Part shown: one piece after another, positions 54,466 through 60,953 of the stretch
How the letters are laid out: the number at the start of each line of letters is the position of its first letter
Numbering within the stretch: the first letter of the stretch is position 1
Source: Ensifer sp. IC4062
GTDB lineage: Bacteria > Pseudomonadota > Alphaproteobacteria > Rhizobiales > Rhizobiaceae
Assembly (NCBI RefSeq): GCF_020193575.1
Contig: NZ_JADYVD010000013.1
Coordinates: 1-64,000, forward strand
Reading direction: 5' to 3'
Length of the DNA: 64,000 nt
Notes under the pieces: generated by a model
The model's database searches: none
What the model saw: the letters and a program-made list of their open reading frames with translations, nothing else
Told to the model about the DNA's origin: nothing
Position numbers and translations under genes: made by a program

Positions 54466-54798
54466 TTCCGGAAGCGCATAGCGCGTCAAGACGGCCTCGC
54501 CGCCGCATCGACCAGTTCCTGCAACACGGCCGAGAACAACTCCCGCTGCAGTGCCGGCAGGACCTGCGGAACGATGATGACCAGGCCGGCGTGCAGCTCC
54601 TCTTTTGCGTAGAGTTTTCTGAAGTCGCGCGCGTTGTTCGTTACGAAGGTGAAGTCGTCCGCGACGATGCGCGGCATCAGATCCCAGTCGGTCTCACCGC
54701 TCAGGCCAAGCCAATTGACATGAAAACAGTCGCGGCTATGGTCTTGAGCACACGCCCACGAGCGAGGTGTGCAGGCATTCATCGACGAGGAACTTCAC
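54466..54798 (-). pseudogene. Frameshifted DUF5615-type PIN-like toxin
   Basis: A GTG at 54798 overlaps the antitoxin stop (GTGA) and starts VKFLVDECLHTSLVGV. The rest, CAQDHSRDCFHVNWLGLSGE then TDWDLMPRIVADDFTFVTNN and ARDFRKLY, is in another frame, so a small indel lies near 54750. A second change near 54490 cuts the usual end. DUF5615 proteins are PIN-fold RNases whose acidic residues are seen here as FLVDE, DWD and TNNARDF. The toxin is therefore broken while the antitoxin gene is intact. Confidence 0.65.
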
Positions 54799-55424
54799 GA
54801 AGCCGTGCCTGAGGCCTTTCGGGAACCAGCCTTGGAGAGAGGCAGGCGCTTCACCGACTTCACCTTCAGTCCCTGTTCCGAAAGTTTTTTCGGCCGTCCG
54901 CGGGCTGGGTGAGCTGCCGTCCAGATTTCGGCGAGTTCCACCATGCGCGCCGTTACAGACGGATAGCCGTCAACGATTTCCGCGCTGCTGGCGCCTTGCT
55001 GTTTCATCGCGGCGATCATTCGCACTGGAACCCGGGTCCCCTTGAAAACCGGTTCGCCGCCTACAACGCCCTTCACAGCCTCAATCTTTTGCTCGGCTTC
55101 TCGAAGCGCCTCGGCGCGCTCGGCGAGTTGCTCCCTCGCCCGCGCCACGTCGACGATCAGATAGTCGTCTGCTCTCACCGTATCCGCGTCGGGATTCTGG
55201 TCGATTGTATCGAACAAGCGCTTGCGACGTTCGGCGGAGAGGATCGAGCCCACGCCATACCAGAGCTTCAGGCGCAGCAGGTCCTCGTCTGTAAGTTCTC
55301 GGCCCTCACGCCCGAAATGGGCCTCTATGATCCGCTTATCGATTGCATTGTGCACCGACTTTACAGCAATCTCGCTTAGAGCTGCGGCTTCGGCAGGCGT
55401 GTAGGCGCGGGAAGCAGTGGTCAT
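54795..55424 (-). CDS. DUF433-type antitoxin with N-terminal HTH
   Basis: The 209-residue protein starts MTTASRAYTPAEAAALSEIA, a MerR-like helix-turn-helix (residues 8-45). It is followed by a charged linker and coiled coil (AREQLAERAEALREAEQKIE) and a C-terminal DUF433 domain: GEPVFKGTRVPVRMIAAM then GASSAEIVDGYPSVTARMVE. DUF433 proteins pair with DUF5615 PIN-like toxins and are believed to be antitoxins that also autorepress. ATG 55424 follows GGAGAATGATT and is preferred over 55457. Its toxin partner is frameshifted. Confidence 0.82.
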   Translation of the reverse strand: MTTASRAYTPAEAAALSEIAVKSVHNAIDKRIIEAHFGREGRELTDEDLLRLKLWYGVGSILSAERRKRLFDTIDQNPDADTVRADDYLIVDVARAREQLAERAEALREAEQKIEAVKGVVGGEPVFKGTRVPVRMIAAMKQQGASSAEIVDGYPSVTARMVELAEIWTAAHPARGRPKKLSEQGLKVKSVKRLPLSKAGSRKASGTAS

Positions 55425-55523
55425 AATCATTCTCCGTGTGGAGAATATATAAGGCATGCCGCTTCAAACGTAAAGGCTGATTGGCGATTTCAACCCGTCT
55501 ATCGTCAGCCCAGCCTTGCAGCT

Positions 55524-56518: not shown

Positions 56519-57777
56519 TCAATTTCCCCGATAGGCGGACGGAAAAATAATGTCCTGATCGACGAGCACATTAAATTTGTAACCTGGTCGAATACGAATT
56601 GTCGGCTGAACGTTCAGGTTCTTCGAGATCGTCTGTTCCGCGACGCGACCAAAGCTCTCGGCGAAATTGCGTCCGGCGGCGTCGGACGCCGTCTCCTGTG
56701 TCGCGAGGGTCGAGCTCTGCGGCAGAGACATGTCGATCCCGGTTCCGATCAGCGCCGCCGATCCGAAGGTCCGCCAGAGATGACGGTCGACCTTGTCAGC
56801 GAAGCCGCCATAACCCTCGGCGTCCGTGCCGGCCATGTCGCCCGATCTGCAGGGTTGACCCGTTTGGAAAGATGAGATCGGTCCAGACGACCAGCACCCG
56901 CTCCTGACCGAAGGATACCTTCGAGTCATATCGGCCGAACAGCTTGGCGCCTTGCGGGATGAGGAGCCGGTATCCCGTCGCACTGTCATAGACATTCTAG
57001 CTGACCTGCGCGGTGATGCGTCCAGGTAGGTCGGAGTTGAGGCCGGTGATCAATGTCGCCGGGATGACCGAGCCGCGCTTCAGTTCATAGGGCGACATCT
57101 GCGGCACGAACTTGTTCGGCAGGTAGCCGAGATTCCTTTATGTCCTGATTAAAGAAGTCCTCCTTCGAGATCTGGCCGTTCTGATCGACATTCTGTCCCA
57201 TGAGCCCGGATTTCATCGCGGCTGCGTAGAGGTCCGATGTGTTGTTTGCTGTCGCTGTCGCATTCTGTCGGCTGGGATCCGTCGCCTTCGCCGTCGTCTC
57301 GACATCCGAGACGTCAACCTTCAGCGGTGAATCGAGCGCTGTCGCACGGGCCTGAAGGCGCGCCATTCTCTGGCGCTGGGCCTCGCGGATATACTGCTCG
57401 TCCTGCTCGCGCTTCAGTCGGGCCTTCCACTCCTCTTCGGACTCGAGCCTGGCCGTCGTACCTCCCGTTCCGCCAGGCGGCGCTCGATAACCGGCTCCTG
57501 TTTCTCGACCTTCTGCTCGGGTGACCGGCGTCGGCTGGAAGGTCTCACGTTCGACTGGCTCGCCTATAATACCGTCCGTCACGCCACGTTTAAGTTGGTC
57601 GCCGAAGCTGGTGGCCGGCGTATCGTCTGCTCGCCCGTCCGTGCAGGCGTCAAGACCGCAATGTGCCACGGCCGTCGCTGCCTCGTCGCCGAACAGTTCG
57701 ATCGCTGCGTCCGCGGTGCTCTCCGGGTCCGACAGGGCTGGTAAGATCGCCTTCGTCATCGCTATCTCCCTGATCAC
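56519..57777 (-). pseudogene. trbI: Decayed trbI (mating-pair formation protein)
   Basis: Most of TrbI/VirB10 can be followed on the minus strand: SFGDQLKRGVTDGIIGEP, FQPTPV, EWKARLKREQDEQYIREAQR, LYAAAMKSGLMGQN, PNKFVPQMSPYELKRGSVIP, ATLITGLNSDLPGRITAQVS, a TAG stop in place of Glu (at about 56998), NVYDSATGYRLLIPQGAKLF, and FADKVDRHLWRTFGSAALIG. There is a frameshift near 57120 and the nonsense codon. The usual N-terminal membrane segment is replaced by an unrelated stretch (MTKAILPALSDPESTADAAI), so the 5' end is also rearranged. No other trb gene is present in the window. Confidence 0.75.
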
Positions 57778-57961: not shown

Positions 57962-58195
57962 CTAATACCAGCGAGCGGTGATCATGGCACGAAGCGGATA
58001 CTCTTTCGGTCGGACGTGGACCTGCTGCTGTCCTACGTTTAGCGATCGAGTGATGCGCCGAGCATTATGCGCCAGGGGCTCGACTTCTCCTATGAAGTGC
58101 ACGTGACCCGGCATGAGCGATATCGGCGCCTCGTCGTCATTAGGGCGCTGAATGTCGTGCTGGAGTGGGGAAGGACTAAACGCACCCAGTTTCAT
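57962..58195 (-). CDS. Small orphan protein, last gene of the protease-nuclease operon
   Basis: The 77-residue protein starts at ATG 58195, 11 bases after the nuclease stop (a TTG at 58216 would overlap it). It reads MKLGAFSPSPLQHDIQRPND then DEAPISLMPGHVHFIGEVEP and ends RPKEYPLRAMITARWY. It looks like a folded beta-rich protein and its codon pattern is not shadow-like. I know no family. Its place at the end of a coupled operon makes it a candidate immunity protein or regulator for the nuclease, which is inference only. Confidence 0.5.
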   Translation of the reverse strand: MKLGAFSPSPLQHDIQRPNDDEAPISLMPGHVHFIGEVEPLAHNARRITRSLNVGQQQVHVRPKEYPLRAMITARWY

Positions 58196-58205
58196 CACTA
58201 CCCCG

Positions 58206-59138
58206 TCAGCGTTCAAGAATGATCTGATCCGCCGAATTTACTCTTATTTCGACTTGGGGGCCTGCTTGCGCCATCACGTCGATCGCCTTGAATGCCGCGA
58301 GATCTAGCCCTGTGTCGATCTCAATCGCCTCCACGCTTACCTGAGTGTCCTCGAAGTCGCCAAATACAAACCGCGACCGCTGCGGACGGGGCATAAAGCT
58401 CGTTTGCGAGCGGCGGTACGCAATAGCAGTCGGGGCCCTGGTCCGGGCATGGGTGAACGCGACAATTTTCCAGAAAGCTACGGGAACCTTTACTCCATAG
58501 TAGACCGGGTCTTCTGCAGTCAATACTGGCCCAGTGATCACAGATATCCGTAGGTTTTCGCGATCAGTGTTATCGAGTATGTAGCTCTCGAGGTCGAGCC
58601 AGACACCCGCGTTGAAGTTTTGTTGCTGCGGAGCGGCATTGGTTACGTGAAAGGTGTCGGCGTCTGCTTGCTTTGCAGTTCCCGGGTCGCCCCAGTTCGG
58701 ATCTTCGCGCCGTGTCATGTGCCCGCGACTGAAAAAACCGCGGGACGCGTCGCCGTAGACCTCTCTAATAATCTGAAGGTCAAGATCGATCCGCGGGTCT
58801 TTTCGCCATGCGTCCGTTCGCTCGACGTCCCGGTTGGACTGGGATCCATCGATGTTCACGGCGCTGAATAGCGGCAGTTTCCGTGACTTGGACATTACCA
58901 CGGAGAAGTGGGTGTACTTCAACTCATACGGCAACGCTCCATCGCGAGCGGCTTCCGGAAGGAGCGTTATGACATCTTCGCTCCAGTCCCTGAGCCCGGG
59001 TAGTGGCAACGACTTCTGCCCGGACACGAAGTCGGCCTGATATCCATCACGTTCTGCGTAACTTTCGATCGACCAGACGGTGTTGACCACCCTGAACGTG
59101 GACACGGTTTGGGGTGCGGGACCGAACGATTTGGCCAC
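58206..59138 (-). CDS. DNA/RNA non-specific endonuclease (EndoG/NUC1 type)
   Basis: The 310-residue protein has the beta-beta-alpha-metal nuclease fold. LKYTHFSVVMSKSRKLPLFS and VNIDG (72-98) are the core strands before the active site. FSRGHMTRREDPNWG (136-150) has the catalytic RGH with His140; the usual DRGH Asp is Ser137. FHVTNAAPQQQNFNAGVWLD (163-182) carries the metal-binding Asn and is followed by LESYIL. The TNAAPQ...N..W..LE pattern is typical. No signal peptide is seen, so it would act inside the cell unless exported. AGGAG precedes the ATG. It is the third gene of the operon, after the protease and the small inhibitor-like gene. Confidence 0.85.
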   Translation of the reverse strand: MAKSFGPAPQTVSTFRVVNTVWSIESYAERDGYQADFVSGQKSLPLPGLRDWSEDVITLLPEAARDGALPYELKYTHFSVVMSKSRKLPLFSAVNIDGSQSNRDVERTDAWRKDPRIDLDLQIIREVYGDASRGFFSRGHMTRREDPNWGDPGTAKQADADTFHVTNAAPQQQNFNAGVWLDLESYILDNTDRENLRISVITGPVLTAEDPVYYGVKVPVAFWKIVAFTHARTRAPTAIAYRRSQTSFMPRPQRSRFVFGDFEDTQVSVEAIEIDTGLDLAAFKAIDVMAQAGPQVEIRVNSADQIILER

Positions 59139-59190
59139 GTTTTAGCTCCTAAGAGGTGAGATGGAGTGCTCTTGAAAAAAATAGGCCGAA

Positions 59191-59442
59191 TTACCGGCCC
59201 ACTTTCACCTTCGTATCGGGGGCGGAGTACCGTCTCGTCGGGAAGCTCCGCCATCCCTTGATAGATTGAGTGGCCGACTTGATCGCCGCCTCGTCCCCCT
59301 CGATCAGAAGGGATGACGGCTTTTCGTCGACGACCGAAATCCCGCGGGTCTTGACCATCCGTTTGACAGCCTTGCCAGAAGGAGCACTGTCATTTTCCTT
59401 TCGCAGGATTACCTGCTGAATGACTGTATCGCTCATGTTCAT
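59191..59442 (-). CDS. Small protein, likely I9-type inhibitor/propeptide of the adjacent subtilase
   Basis: The 83-residue protein (MNMSDTVIQQVILRKENDSA, then PSGKAVKRMVKTRGISVVDE, KPSSLLIEGDEAAIKSATQS) has the beta-alpha-beta-beta-alpha-beta order of peptidase inhibitor I9/subtilisin propeptide domains: strand, helix after SGKAV, strands around ISVV and SSLLIEG, helix DEAAIKSATQS. No signature residue proves it. Its start overlaps the protease stop by ATGA, so it is translated with the protease. Known I9 proteins fold and inhibit subtilases, sometimes in trans. Here that would be a natural lock on the protease. Confidence 0.6.
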   Translation of the reverse strand: MNMSDTVIQQVILRKENDSAPSGKAVKRMVKTRGISVVDEKPSSLLIEGDEAAIKSATQSIKGWRSFPTRRYSAPDTKVKVGR

Positions 59443-60953
59443 CCTTGACCGGGCAACCCGAAGCCCTCGTAGTCTCGACCAAAACCCACAGCACGTGCGG
59501 CTTCGAACAAAGCGTCGGTAAGCGCCCTGCTGCGGTTTTCATCTATCTGTTGAAATATAGTATTGTTCGACGCCAAAAGGAAGGCTGCGTAGCCCGCGAC
59601 GGTGGGAGTCGCCATGGACGTGCCGCTCATCGGTCCATAGGTAGCTCCCGGCAAGGTGGACACGACCCCCACGCCAGGCCCAGTCAGGTCTATTTGCGGG
59701 CCAAAATTCGAAAATGCCCCTACGAAGCTGTCGTTAGCCCCGAACGGAGCCGCAATGTCCAGAGCTTCGGTCGAGTCCTGCGGAAACGAGTCCCGCCGGC
59801 CCATGGCGGACACAGCGATGCAGAATGGAAGAGCGGCCGGGAAGCTGACAGGCTTTCGCCCATCGTTTCCAGCTGCTGCAATAACTATGACGCCTCTGCT
59901 CAAAGCGGAGCCGATGGCTGCGCGAACGGCCTCATCCTCGGCTCCGCCTCCGAGACTGAGGTTGATTATGTGGCAACCGTCCTGAACAGCCCGGTCGATA
60001 GCGTTCATTATATCGTAGTTTATCGCCCCCTCTCCCGAGTGCGGAAAAACCCGATAGCTCCTGAGGGTGACGCCGGGAGCAATGCCCGACAACGGGATGT
60101 CGGCTGTAGGCCTTGCCCCCACGATGCCTGCGACGTGAGTACCGTGTTCGCCGTCGACCGCCGCTGGACCCCACTCGTCGATACAGCCGGGGTCGTCGCG
60201 GGTTTCCTCAGAAACCATGTTCGCGCCGCCAGAAACGTTCGGCAGCAGCGGATGGTCGCGGGCAATTCCAGTATCAACTATGCCGACGATCACATTTGTG
60301 CCAGCGTCTACAGGTATTCCCGCACGAAAGCGGTTCAAGGCCAACGAAGCCCGGCGGAGATCGACAGACTCCAACGCCACGGTTGCGTTTGAAACCAGTT
60401 CGTAGCGGCGAGCGGAGTGTCCCCAGTAAGTCGGAGGTCCGTAGACGTATATGCGATCAAGGGACGTGCCCTTGGCAATTCGAAGGCGTACCCGCCCCTG
60501 GTCGTCGGAGATACCCTCGTCCCCTGCTTTTCTTCGGAAGTTTGTGAATGCGATGACCTGAGCGCCGGGGATCGGATTGCCGTCCTTGTCCTTTACAAAA
60601 AGGTTGGTCGCTGCCGATCGAGTGGTGCGCACCGAGGCCGAAGCTTCGCGGAGAATACGATGCTGCATTTTCATAGTGCGATAACGGACGACCGGAACGA
60701 TCTTGAGGTCTGGTTCCTCAATTCGAAGCGCTAGCTCGGCTTCCGGAGTCATCTCCACAAGCCGCGGCCCATCGGCGCTGACGTAATCAAGGAGCTCGAT
60801 TCCAGCCTCAGGCGAAATTGGTGCCGCCATGGCGACACCCCGCCTGCCTGCCGCACCCGGAATTGTGGGACGAAGGCTCGCGGCCCTTTCGAGCGTTGCC
60901 GATCTGAAGCCGTACGAAGGAAGAACAACGTATTGTTTGCGCAAGGGGATCAC
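59439..60953 (-). CDS. Subtilisin-like serine protease (S8) with N-terminal carboxypeptidase-regulatory-like domain
   Basis: The 504-residue protein has no signal peptide. Residues 1-110 are a mixed segment (possibly a poor propeptide). Residues 115-175 form an Ig-like carboxypeptidase-regulatory-like domain (NLFVKDKDGNPIPGAQVIAF, RVRLRIAKG). Residues 215-504 are the S8 protease with the triad intact: Asp227 in IVGIVDTGIA, His270 in GEHGTHVAG, and Ser446 in MSGTSMATPTVAG. The oxyanion Asn363 is in AAAGNDG. It probably works in the cytosol, since no export signal is visible. It heads a four-gene operon with an I9-like protein, a nuclease and an orphan. Confidence 0.9.
   Translation of the reverse strand: MIPLRKQYVVLPSYGFRSATLERAASLRPTIPGAAGRRGVAMAAPISPEAGIELLDYVSADGPRLVEMTPEAELALRIEEPDLKIVPVVRYRTMKMQHRILREASASVRTTRSAATNLFVKDKDGNPIPGAQVIAFTNFRRKAGDEGISDDQGRVRLRIAKGTSLDRIYVYGPPTYWGHSARRYELVSNATVALESVDLRRASLALNRFRAGIPVDAGTNVIVGIVDTGIARDHPLLPNVSGGANMVSEETRDDPGCIDEWGPAAVDGEHGTHVAGIVGARPTADIPLSGIAPGVTLRSYRVFPHSGEGAINYDIMNAIDRAVQDGCHIINLSLGGGAEDEAVRAAIGSALSRGVIVIAAAGNDGRKPVSFPAALPFCIAVSAMGRRDSFPQDSTEALDIAAPFGANDSFVGAFSNFGPQIDLTGPGVGVVSTLPGATYGPMSGTSMATPTVAGYAAFLLASNNTIFQQIDENRSRALTDALFEAARAVGFGRDYEGFGLPGQG

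Follow-up and report, generated by a model that had tools for sequence, protein, structure and literature searches.

A subtilisin-family peptidase, a small protein and a NucA/EndoG-type nuclease encoded together in decaying plasmid transfer DNA of Ensifer: a possible protease-licensed nuclease

The three-gene cassette

The window analysed here is a 64,000 nucleotide (nt) stretch at the start of contig NZ_JADYVD010000013.1 (G000:C44; 144 kb) in the 7.1 Mb genome of Ensifer sp. IC4062. It includes three real genes, for an S8 (subtilisin-family) peptidase, a small protein and an Endonuclease_NS nuclease of the NucA/EndoG type, which lie head to tail on the minus strand in an operon-like arrangement (Table 1). 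The nuclease gene begins 52 nt downstream of the small gene. The cassette DNA is also found in Ensifer sp. IC3342, with 99.98 % identity over 11.8 kb.

A first-pass annotation of the window had described an S8 peptidase with an intact catalytic triad, a short overlapping gene and an EndoG-type nuclease with an RGH motif, and these descriptions hold. The S8 domain occupies residues 218-467 of the peptidase, and the catalytic Asp227, His270 and Ser446 align in all 11 S8 rows compared. In the nuclease, the RGH motif is at residues 138-140; the G-H is present in 11/11 rows, and R is replaced by K in L022. When the nuclease was compared with solved structures by sequence, the nearest were EXOG, bacterial 'Nuclease' and Endonuclease G entries (E 2.4e-6 or weaker). 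The S8 peptidase had also been said to lack a signal peptide. This agrees with a plain hydropathy scan, as distinct from a signal-peptide program, which revealed no hydrophobic N-terminus in any of the cassette proteins. The approximately 100 N-terminal amino acids (aa) of the S8 protein are possibly a prodomain, and a sub-threshold CarboxypepD_reg-like stretch is found at residues 119-162. A scan for promoters and terminators gave nothing above shuffled sequences, the G+C content resembles that of the flanking DNA, and the flanking repeats found were short pairs only (16-20 nt).

Table 1. Features of the cassette and adjacent DNA (window coordinates)
Feature	Position	Strand	Details
S8 (subtilisin-family) peptidase	59439-60953	-	504 aa; GTG start; Pfam Peptidase_S8 (PF00082), 4.1e-44
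Small protein	59191-59442	-	83 aa; start overlaps the S8 stop (ATGA); apparent partner of this S8 group
NucA/EndoG-type nuclease	58206-59138	-	310 aa; GTG start; Endonuclease_NS (PF01223), 2.2e-42
'Orphan' frame, not a gene	57962-58195	-	antisense to conjugation-ATPase remnant
Fragment of decayed ATPase gene, type II secretion system/type IV pilus/type IV secretion system (T2SS/T4P/T4SS) family	57983-58126	+	in-frame stop
Broken trbI remnant	57085-57777	-	DNA similarity to trbI of other plasmids

Recurrence of the trio and relatives of the nuclease

The trio recurs in Rhodobacter xinxiangensis (L006), where it is packed more tightly, the S8 and small genes being 2 nt apart and the small and nuclease genes overlapping by 4 nt. 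In L020 and L024 (an Agrobacterium Ti plasmid and Rhizobium CIAT894), an S8 gene and small gene also lie ahead of a nuclease fused behind a trypsin domain, which was detected by Pfam in L020 and by a profile in L024. In all four loci that include both S8 and nuclease genes, the small gene lies between them. In Ensifer adhaerens SD006, all that was found of the nuclease gene was a stretch of 37 codons. The trio looks rare. A scan of genome contigs with short peptide patterns, limited in reach to close relatives, recovered three loci, one of them the 37-codon remnant. No nuclease relative was found among 160 pattern stretches from viral contigs, and the eight phage records that matched the nuclease were all <31 % identical.

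Nuclease matches were found in 9 of 385 genomes of the class (11 places, own genome included) and in 16 non-own genomes among 199 of the family, of which 15 were inspected (G015 was omitted); 12 of 97 matching plasmid records were inspected. Together with the Rhodobacter locus, and with the E. adhaerens remnant and the IC3342 copy excluded, these gave 39 distinct nuclease loci. A peptidase is fused to or adjacent to the nuclease in 31 of them. For 29, the peptidase is of the trypsin or S8 type and is either part of the nuclease protein or encoded next to it; many of these assignments rest on our own profile only, and the fragmentary L029 is counted. The remaining two are L084, where the neighbour is metallopeptidase-like, and L019, from a Rhizobium leguminosarum plasmid. 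L019 is a conflict-type operon (L019:1456-6915) that encodes a hydrolase/M17_N/CHAT protein, a SIR2-pYEATS protein and then a nuclease 57 % identical to that in the window. No peptidase was found at eight loci (L028, L031, L033, L035, L037, L038, L040 and L079), the neighbours of which were scanned with trypsin, S8 and CHAT profiles only. Four of these nucleases (L033, L035, L038 and L040) have a C-terminal Lamin Tail Domain, which is below the Pfam cut-off in L038.

A second nuclease of this family is encoded on the same contig as the window (G000:C44:134792-136783; L034:4793-6784), in a 664-codon frame with Endonuclease_NS followed by a C-terminal trypsin domain. On a Polaromonas plasmid (L026:103-5816), a trypsin-AAA protein, a large ATPase (AAA_16/NPHP3_N) and the nuclease are encoded in one operon. 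Just upstream of the lone nuclease in L031, there is a weak small-protein-like frame (L031:5551-5769; E 0.0014), which may be the remnant of a lost S8 and small gene pair, or chance. That profile also picks up, at E 4e-4, a protein that by eye is MutM-like and evidently a false match.

Relatives of the S8 peptidase

Searches with the S8 peptidase at E 1e-30 matched 3 of the 385 class genomes and 4 of the 199 family genomes, own genome included. The 15 S8 loci counted here are the window, L006, L020, L024, L043-L048, L050, L071 and L091-L093; L049, in which no small gene was found, and L053, a short contig not examined for a small gene, were omitted. A small gene follows the S8 gene in 14 of the 15, and L048 has a doubtful small frame only. 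Of ten of these small genes, the window's included, five others match the window small protein by blastp and four were assigned by position. For L071 the assignment is by a weak match to the profile (E 0.006), and the small genes of L091-L093 were read by eye. The nuclease gene follows the pair in only the window, L006, L020 and L024.

In two rhizobia, the S8 and small genes adjoin tyrosinase and DUF2182 genes (L043:6007-9307 and L091:2402-6345). The copies of these neighbours in L043 and L091 share 49 % identity over 94 residues and 36 % over 174. In L091 the tyrosinase and DUF2182 genes run convergently towards the S8 pair, and only the first 93 residues of the L043 tyrosinase match. The tyrosinase is perhaps another S8-controlled enzyme, or its position is a coincidence.

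Separate histories of the S8 peptidase and the nuclease

Relative to the window, the S8 peptidase is 36.5 % identical and the nuclease 60.3 % identical in L006, and the order is reversed in L020 (S8 peptidase 63.5 %, nuclease 44.1 %). In the nuclease tree, the window, L006, L019 and L031 form a clade (100/98), which L020, L024 and L023 join (100/97). In the S8 tree that includes outgroups, the window groups with L020, L024, L043 and L044 (99/99), and L006 groups with two Paracoccus S8 peptidases. Each tree rejects the grouping found in the other. The nuclease-like grouping of the window with L006 and the Paracoccus peptidases of L046 and L047 is rejected in the S8 tree (p 2.2e-4, or p 0.005 when L045 is included), and the S8-like grouping of the window with L020 and L024 is rejected in the nuclease tree (p 1.7e-5). 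A single clade of the four nucleases linked to an S8 and small gene is also rejected (p 1.3e-5), whereas the window and L006 as sole sisters in the nuclease tree are neither found nor rejected (p 0.3). The approximately unbiased (AU) test on the S8 tree for the window and L006 alone (p 2.7e-47) shows only that the nuclease-partnered S8 peptidases are not a clade, because the Paracoccus peptidases that join L006 have no nuclease. The clades were named after the trees had been seen and the p values are descriptive, and some S8 outgroup branches are long. Unrooted trees of the S8 peptidase and the nuclease are concordant when restricted to the four loci common to both; disagreement appears only when the other rows serve as outgroups, and in the identity order.

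From the reversed identity order and the mutually rejected groupings, we conclude, on sequence comparison, that the S8 and small gene pair has on more than one occasion either joined this nuclease clade or been exchanged. The reversed identity order would not result simply from losses out of a single ancestral trio.

The small protein

The first-pass annotation had assigned I9-propeptide topology to the small protein, and this was not borne out. There was no match to Pfam I9 (PF05922) even at E 10, and the hhalign score against I9, represented by a thin set of five sequences, was 9.8, with shuffles reaching 11.6. When the S8 N-terminus was compared with I9 the score was 17.1, against a maximum of 11.1 for 40 column-shuffled I9 alignments, but it covers 18 columns only and is suggestive at most. 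The small protein and the S8 N-terminus scored 12.7, a value that has no shuffle control. A search of solved structures with the small-protein profile gave a best E of 0.91. The protein resembles I9 propeptides, and the detached propeptide-like inhibitors of subtilases, in its length of about 80 aa, its association with an S8 peptidase and possibly a similar strand-helix order, but differs in lacking a Pfam or hidden Markov model (HMM)-HMM match; an I9-like fold is unproven.

The small protein looks like the S8 peptidase's own partner, as all eight plasmid records with a small-protein match have a matching S8 gene alongside. These represent five distinct loci, four Agrobacterium records being alike. 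The small gene follows the S8 gene whether or not a nuclease gene is nearby. Searches of the wider collections found little: in the class, the small-protein profile matched 2 of 385 genomes, own genome and one evidently false match, and in the family a search with the single protein matched 1 of 199, own genome only.

Comparison with known systems

The first-pass annotation did not recognize the gene set as a named system. This stands for the exact set of S8, small and nuclease genes, which did not appear among the papers listed by searches of open-licence PMC literature (preprints not included). However, the wider kind has been described. In their System 3 section, Kaur et al. (2020; PMC7159879) predicted NucA-peptidase conflict systems, mostly in alphaproteobacteria, and proposed that a proteolytic cascade deploys the nuclease. 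That section reports S8 domains in some members, flanking NucA in one polypeptide, and EAD1 in a subset of the operons. The NucA-trypsin proposal is repeated in PMC8195603, in the part consulted, and no test of System 3 was found in the literature covered. The architectures of L082, where trypsin, nuclease and S8 domains form one protein in that order, and L073, where an S8-trypsin protein precedes the nuclease and then another S8 peptidase, are much as Kaur et al. described there for some members (PMC7159879). The window operon shares with System 3 the Endonuclease_NS (NucA) domain and an additional S8 peptidase, but the latter is encoded by a separate gene. It also has no trypsin-like peptidase, whose usual place would be taken by the S8 and small genes, and the small partner of the S8 peptidase is not mentioned in the System 3 section (PMC7159879). 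No match to a trypsin profile was found in the operon proteins, nor in any window frame of at least 50 codons. The operon is therefore a variant of System 3 and not a strict member.

In HamM, Avs1 and Canu, a partner protease activates a nuclease in antiphage defence, as reported in the part of Tuck et al. (2025; PMC12799240) drawn on here. By analogy, the window operon may share this licensing logic, though the components differ: a metallo-beta-lactamase (MBL)-superfamily nuclease with gating insertions and a trypsin- or caspase-like protease in those systems, Endonuclease_NS and S8 in the window. Like IetAS, the window operon includes an S8 peptidase, with weak PADLOC and NCBIfam matches to IetS, but the NF042956 score is 20.6 bits, against a cut-off of 900, and there is no ATPase gene in the window operon.

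Plasmid surroundings

The cassette is located in decaying plasmid transfer DNA, beside a broken trbI. Similarity to trbI DNA of other plasmids spans about 56529-57623, and 57623 is not exceeded in any of the 25 records listed (120 plasmid records matched). The window further encodes conjugation-type TraG/VirD4, a MobA/MobL relaxase and ArdC-like genes. A DUF5615/DUF433 pair is found at 54486-55457, and such a pair is annotated near a nuclease fusion on pNGR234a too.

A 77-residue 'orphan' had been counted as a fourth gene of the operon and proposed as an immunity protein. It is not a gene but is antisense to a decayed conjugation-ATPase fragment, and both the four-gene set and the immunity role are thus unsupported. 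The plus strand opposite it encodes ATPase residues 69-118 at 74-78 % identity, interrupted by an in-frame stop and a gap, and the DNA is 85 % identical to Sinorhizobium plasmid pSS05631d. The frame has no Pfam match at E 1, and blastp against all frames of the compared loci found only the window itself and the identical IC3342 copy. With tblastn, five plasmid records matched, and in the two of these that were inspected the match is antisense to a T2SS/T4P/T4SS-family ATPase gene.

Is the nuclease licensed by the peptidase?

A NucA/EndoG-type enzyme without an export signal must stay inert inside the cell. The regular company of peptidases kept by this nuclease family suggests proteolytic licensing, and our preferred reading, held tentatively, is that the cassette is a protease-licensed nuclease, a plasmid-borne three-gene conflict system. 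The S8 peptidase, acting inside the cell together with its small partner, would control the nuclease. Most likely, the small protein would bind and restrain (or chaperone) the S8 peptidase. Some cue would release the peptidase, which would then license the nuclease by cleaving either it or an interacting factor, and the cutting of nucleic acids would harm an invader or kill the cell. The genes, their order and intact catalytic motifs are plain from the sequence. The recurrence of the trio, the S8 and small genes ahead of trypsin-nuclease fusions, the repeated pairing or exchange and the peptidase linkage of the nuclease family argue for this reading; whether the modules met repeatedly or were exchanged, either course speaks for a functional bond. 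Of the protease-controlled nuclease proposed in the first-pass annotation, the control by a protease is in keeping with this evidence, and the orphan as immunity protein is not. That annotation would have taken neighbours conserved in close relatives alone as a refutation; this does not apply, as the trio is present in Rhodobacter at about 60 % nuclease identity.

Several observations weigh against protease licensing. In 11 of the 15 S8 loci, no nuclease accompanies the S8 and small genes within the stretches examined, and in L092 and L093 they are found among apparent cox genes (by eye). Two of the three nearest nucleases have no S8 peptidase: L019, with CHAT and SIR2 proteins, and L031, with no peptidase detected by the profiles. 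The window and Rhodobacter small proteins are only 14 % identical, which leaves position, size and a handful of residues as the basis for calling them homologous. The nuclease has no conspicuous gating insertion, and a sensor gene was not seen in the operon. In PADLOC, the nuclease and small protein have no match, and the S8 peptidase matches the 'subtilase' model (3.7e-36) besides IetS.

The S8 loci that have no nuclease, the tyrosinase and DUF2182 genes alongside in L043 and L091, the cox surroundings and the nuclease that stands without S8 in L031 would suit an independent intracellular protease with a propeptide-like partner, engaged in processing or quality control, with the nuclease a separate gene joined to the transcript and under no proteolytic control. 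We regard this as unlikely, though it is the strongest of the alternatives. Against it stand the repeated pairing or exchange involving this one nuclease clade, the tight or overlapping gene spacing and the linkage of the nuclease family to peptidases.

A toxin-antitoxin arrangement, in which the small protein inhibits the nuclease and the S8 peptidase destroys it on stress, would fit the placement of the small gene between the other two in every S8 and nuclease locus, and the small-like frame before the S8-less nuclease of L031. However, the small protein accompanies S8 where no nuclease is near, the L031 match is weak, scoring below the false MutM-like match, and the profile found no small-like frame at L019, making this arrangement improbable. 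Slightly less probable again is a relic or digestive enzyme set, functionless today on a decaying plasmid region, as the broken trbI, the ATPase fragment and the E. adhaerens remnant might suggest, given that the three frames are intact with their catalytic residues, the same DNA is present in IC3342, the trio is intact in Rhodobacter and no export signal was seen in the hydropathy scan.

Implications

The cassette suggests a self-destruct or defence switch in which a subtilisin-type protease replaces the usual trypsin-type. A broader proposal, which is speculative and itself unlikely, is that the S8 and small genes act as a transferable protease unit that keeps itself in check and has repeatedly been connected to dormant effectors, the NucA nuclease and perhaps the tyrosinase. 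This would be a subtilisin-run counterpart of nuclease immunity activated by caspase or trypsin, in which a separate gene encodes the propeptide-like safety catch. The activation of nucleases by proteases is a recent theme in bacterial immunity, and the nucleases tested in the part of Tuck et al. (2025; PMC12799240) considered here belong to the MBL superfamily and are partnered by trypsin or caspase. If protease licensing is true of the window cassette, the S8, small and EndoG-type set would extend the theme to a nuclease type linked with eukaryotic apoptosis. The trio is not categorically new, and would serve as a minimal three-gene test case for the 2020 prediction.

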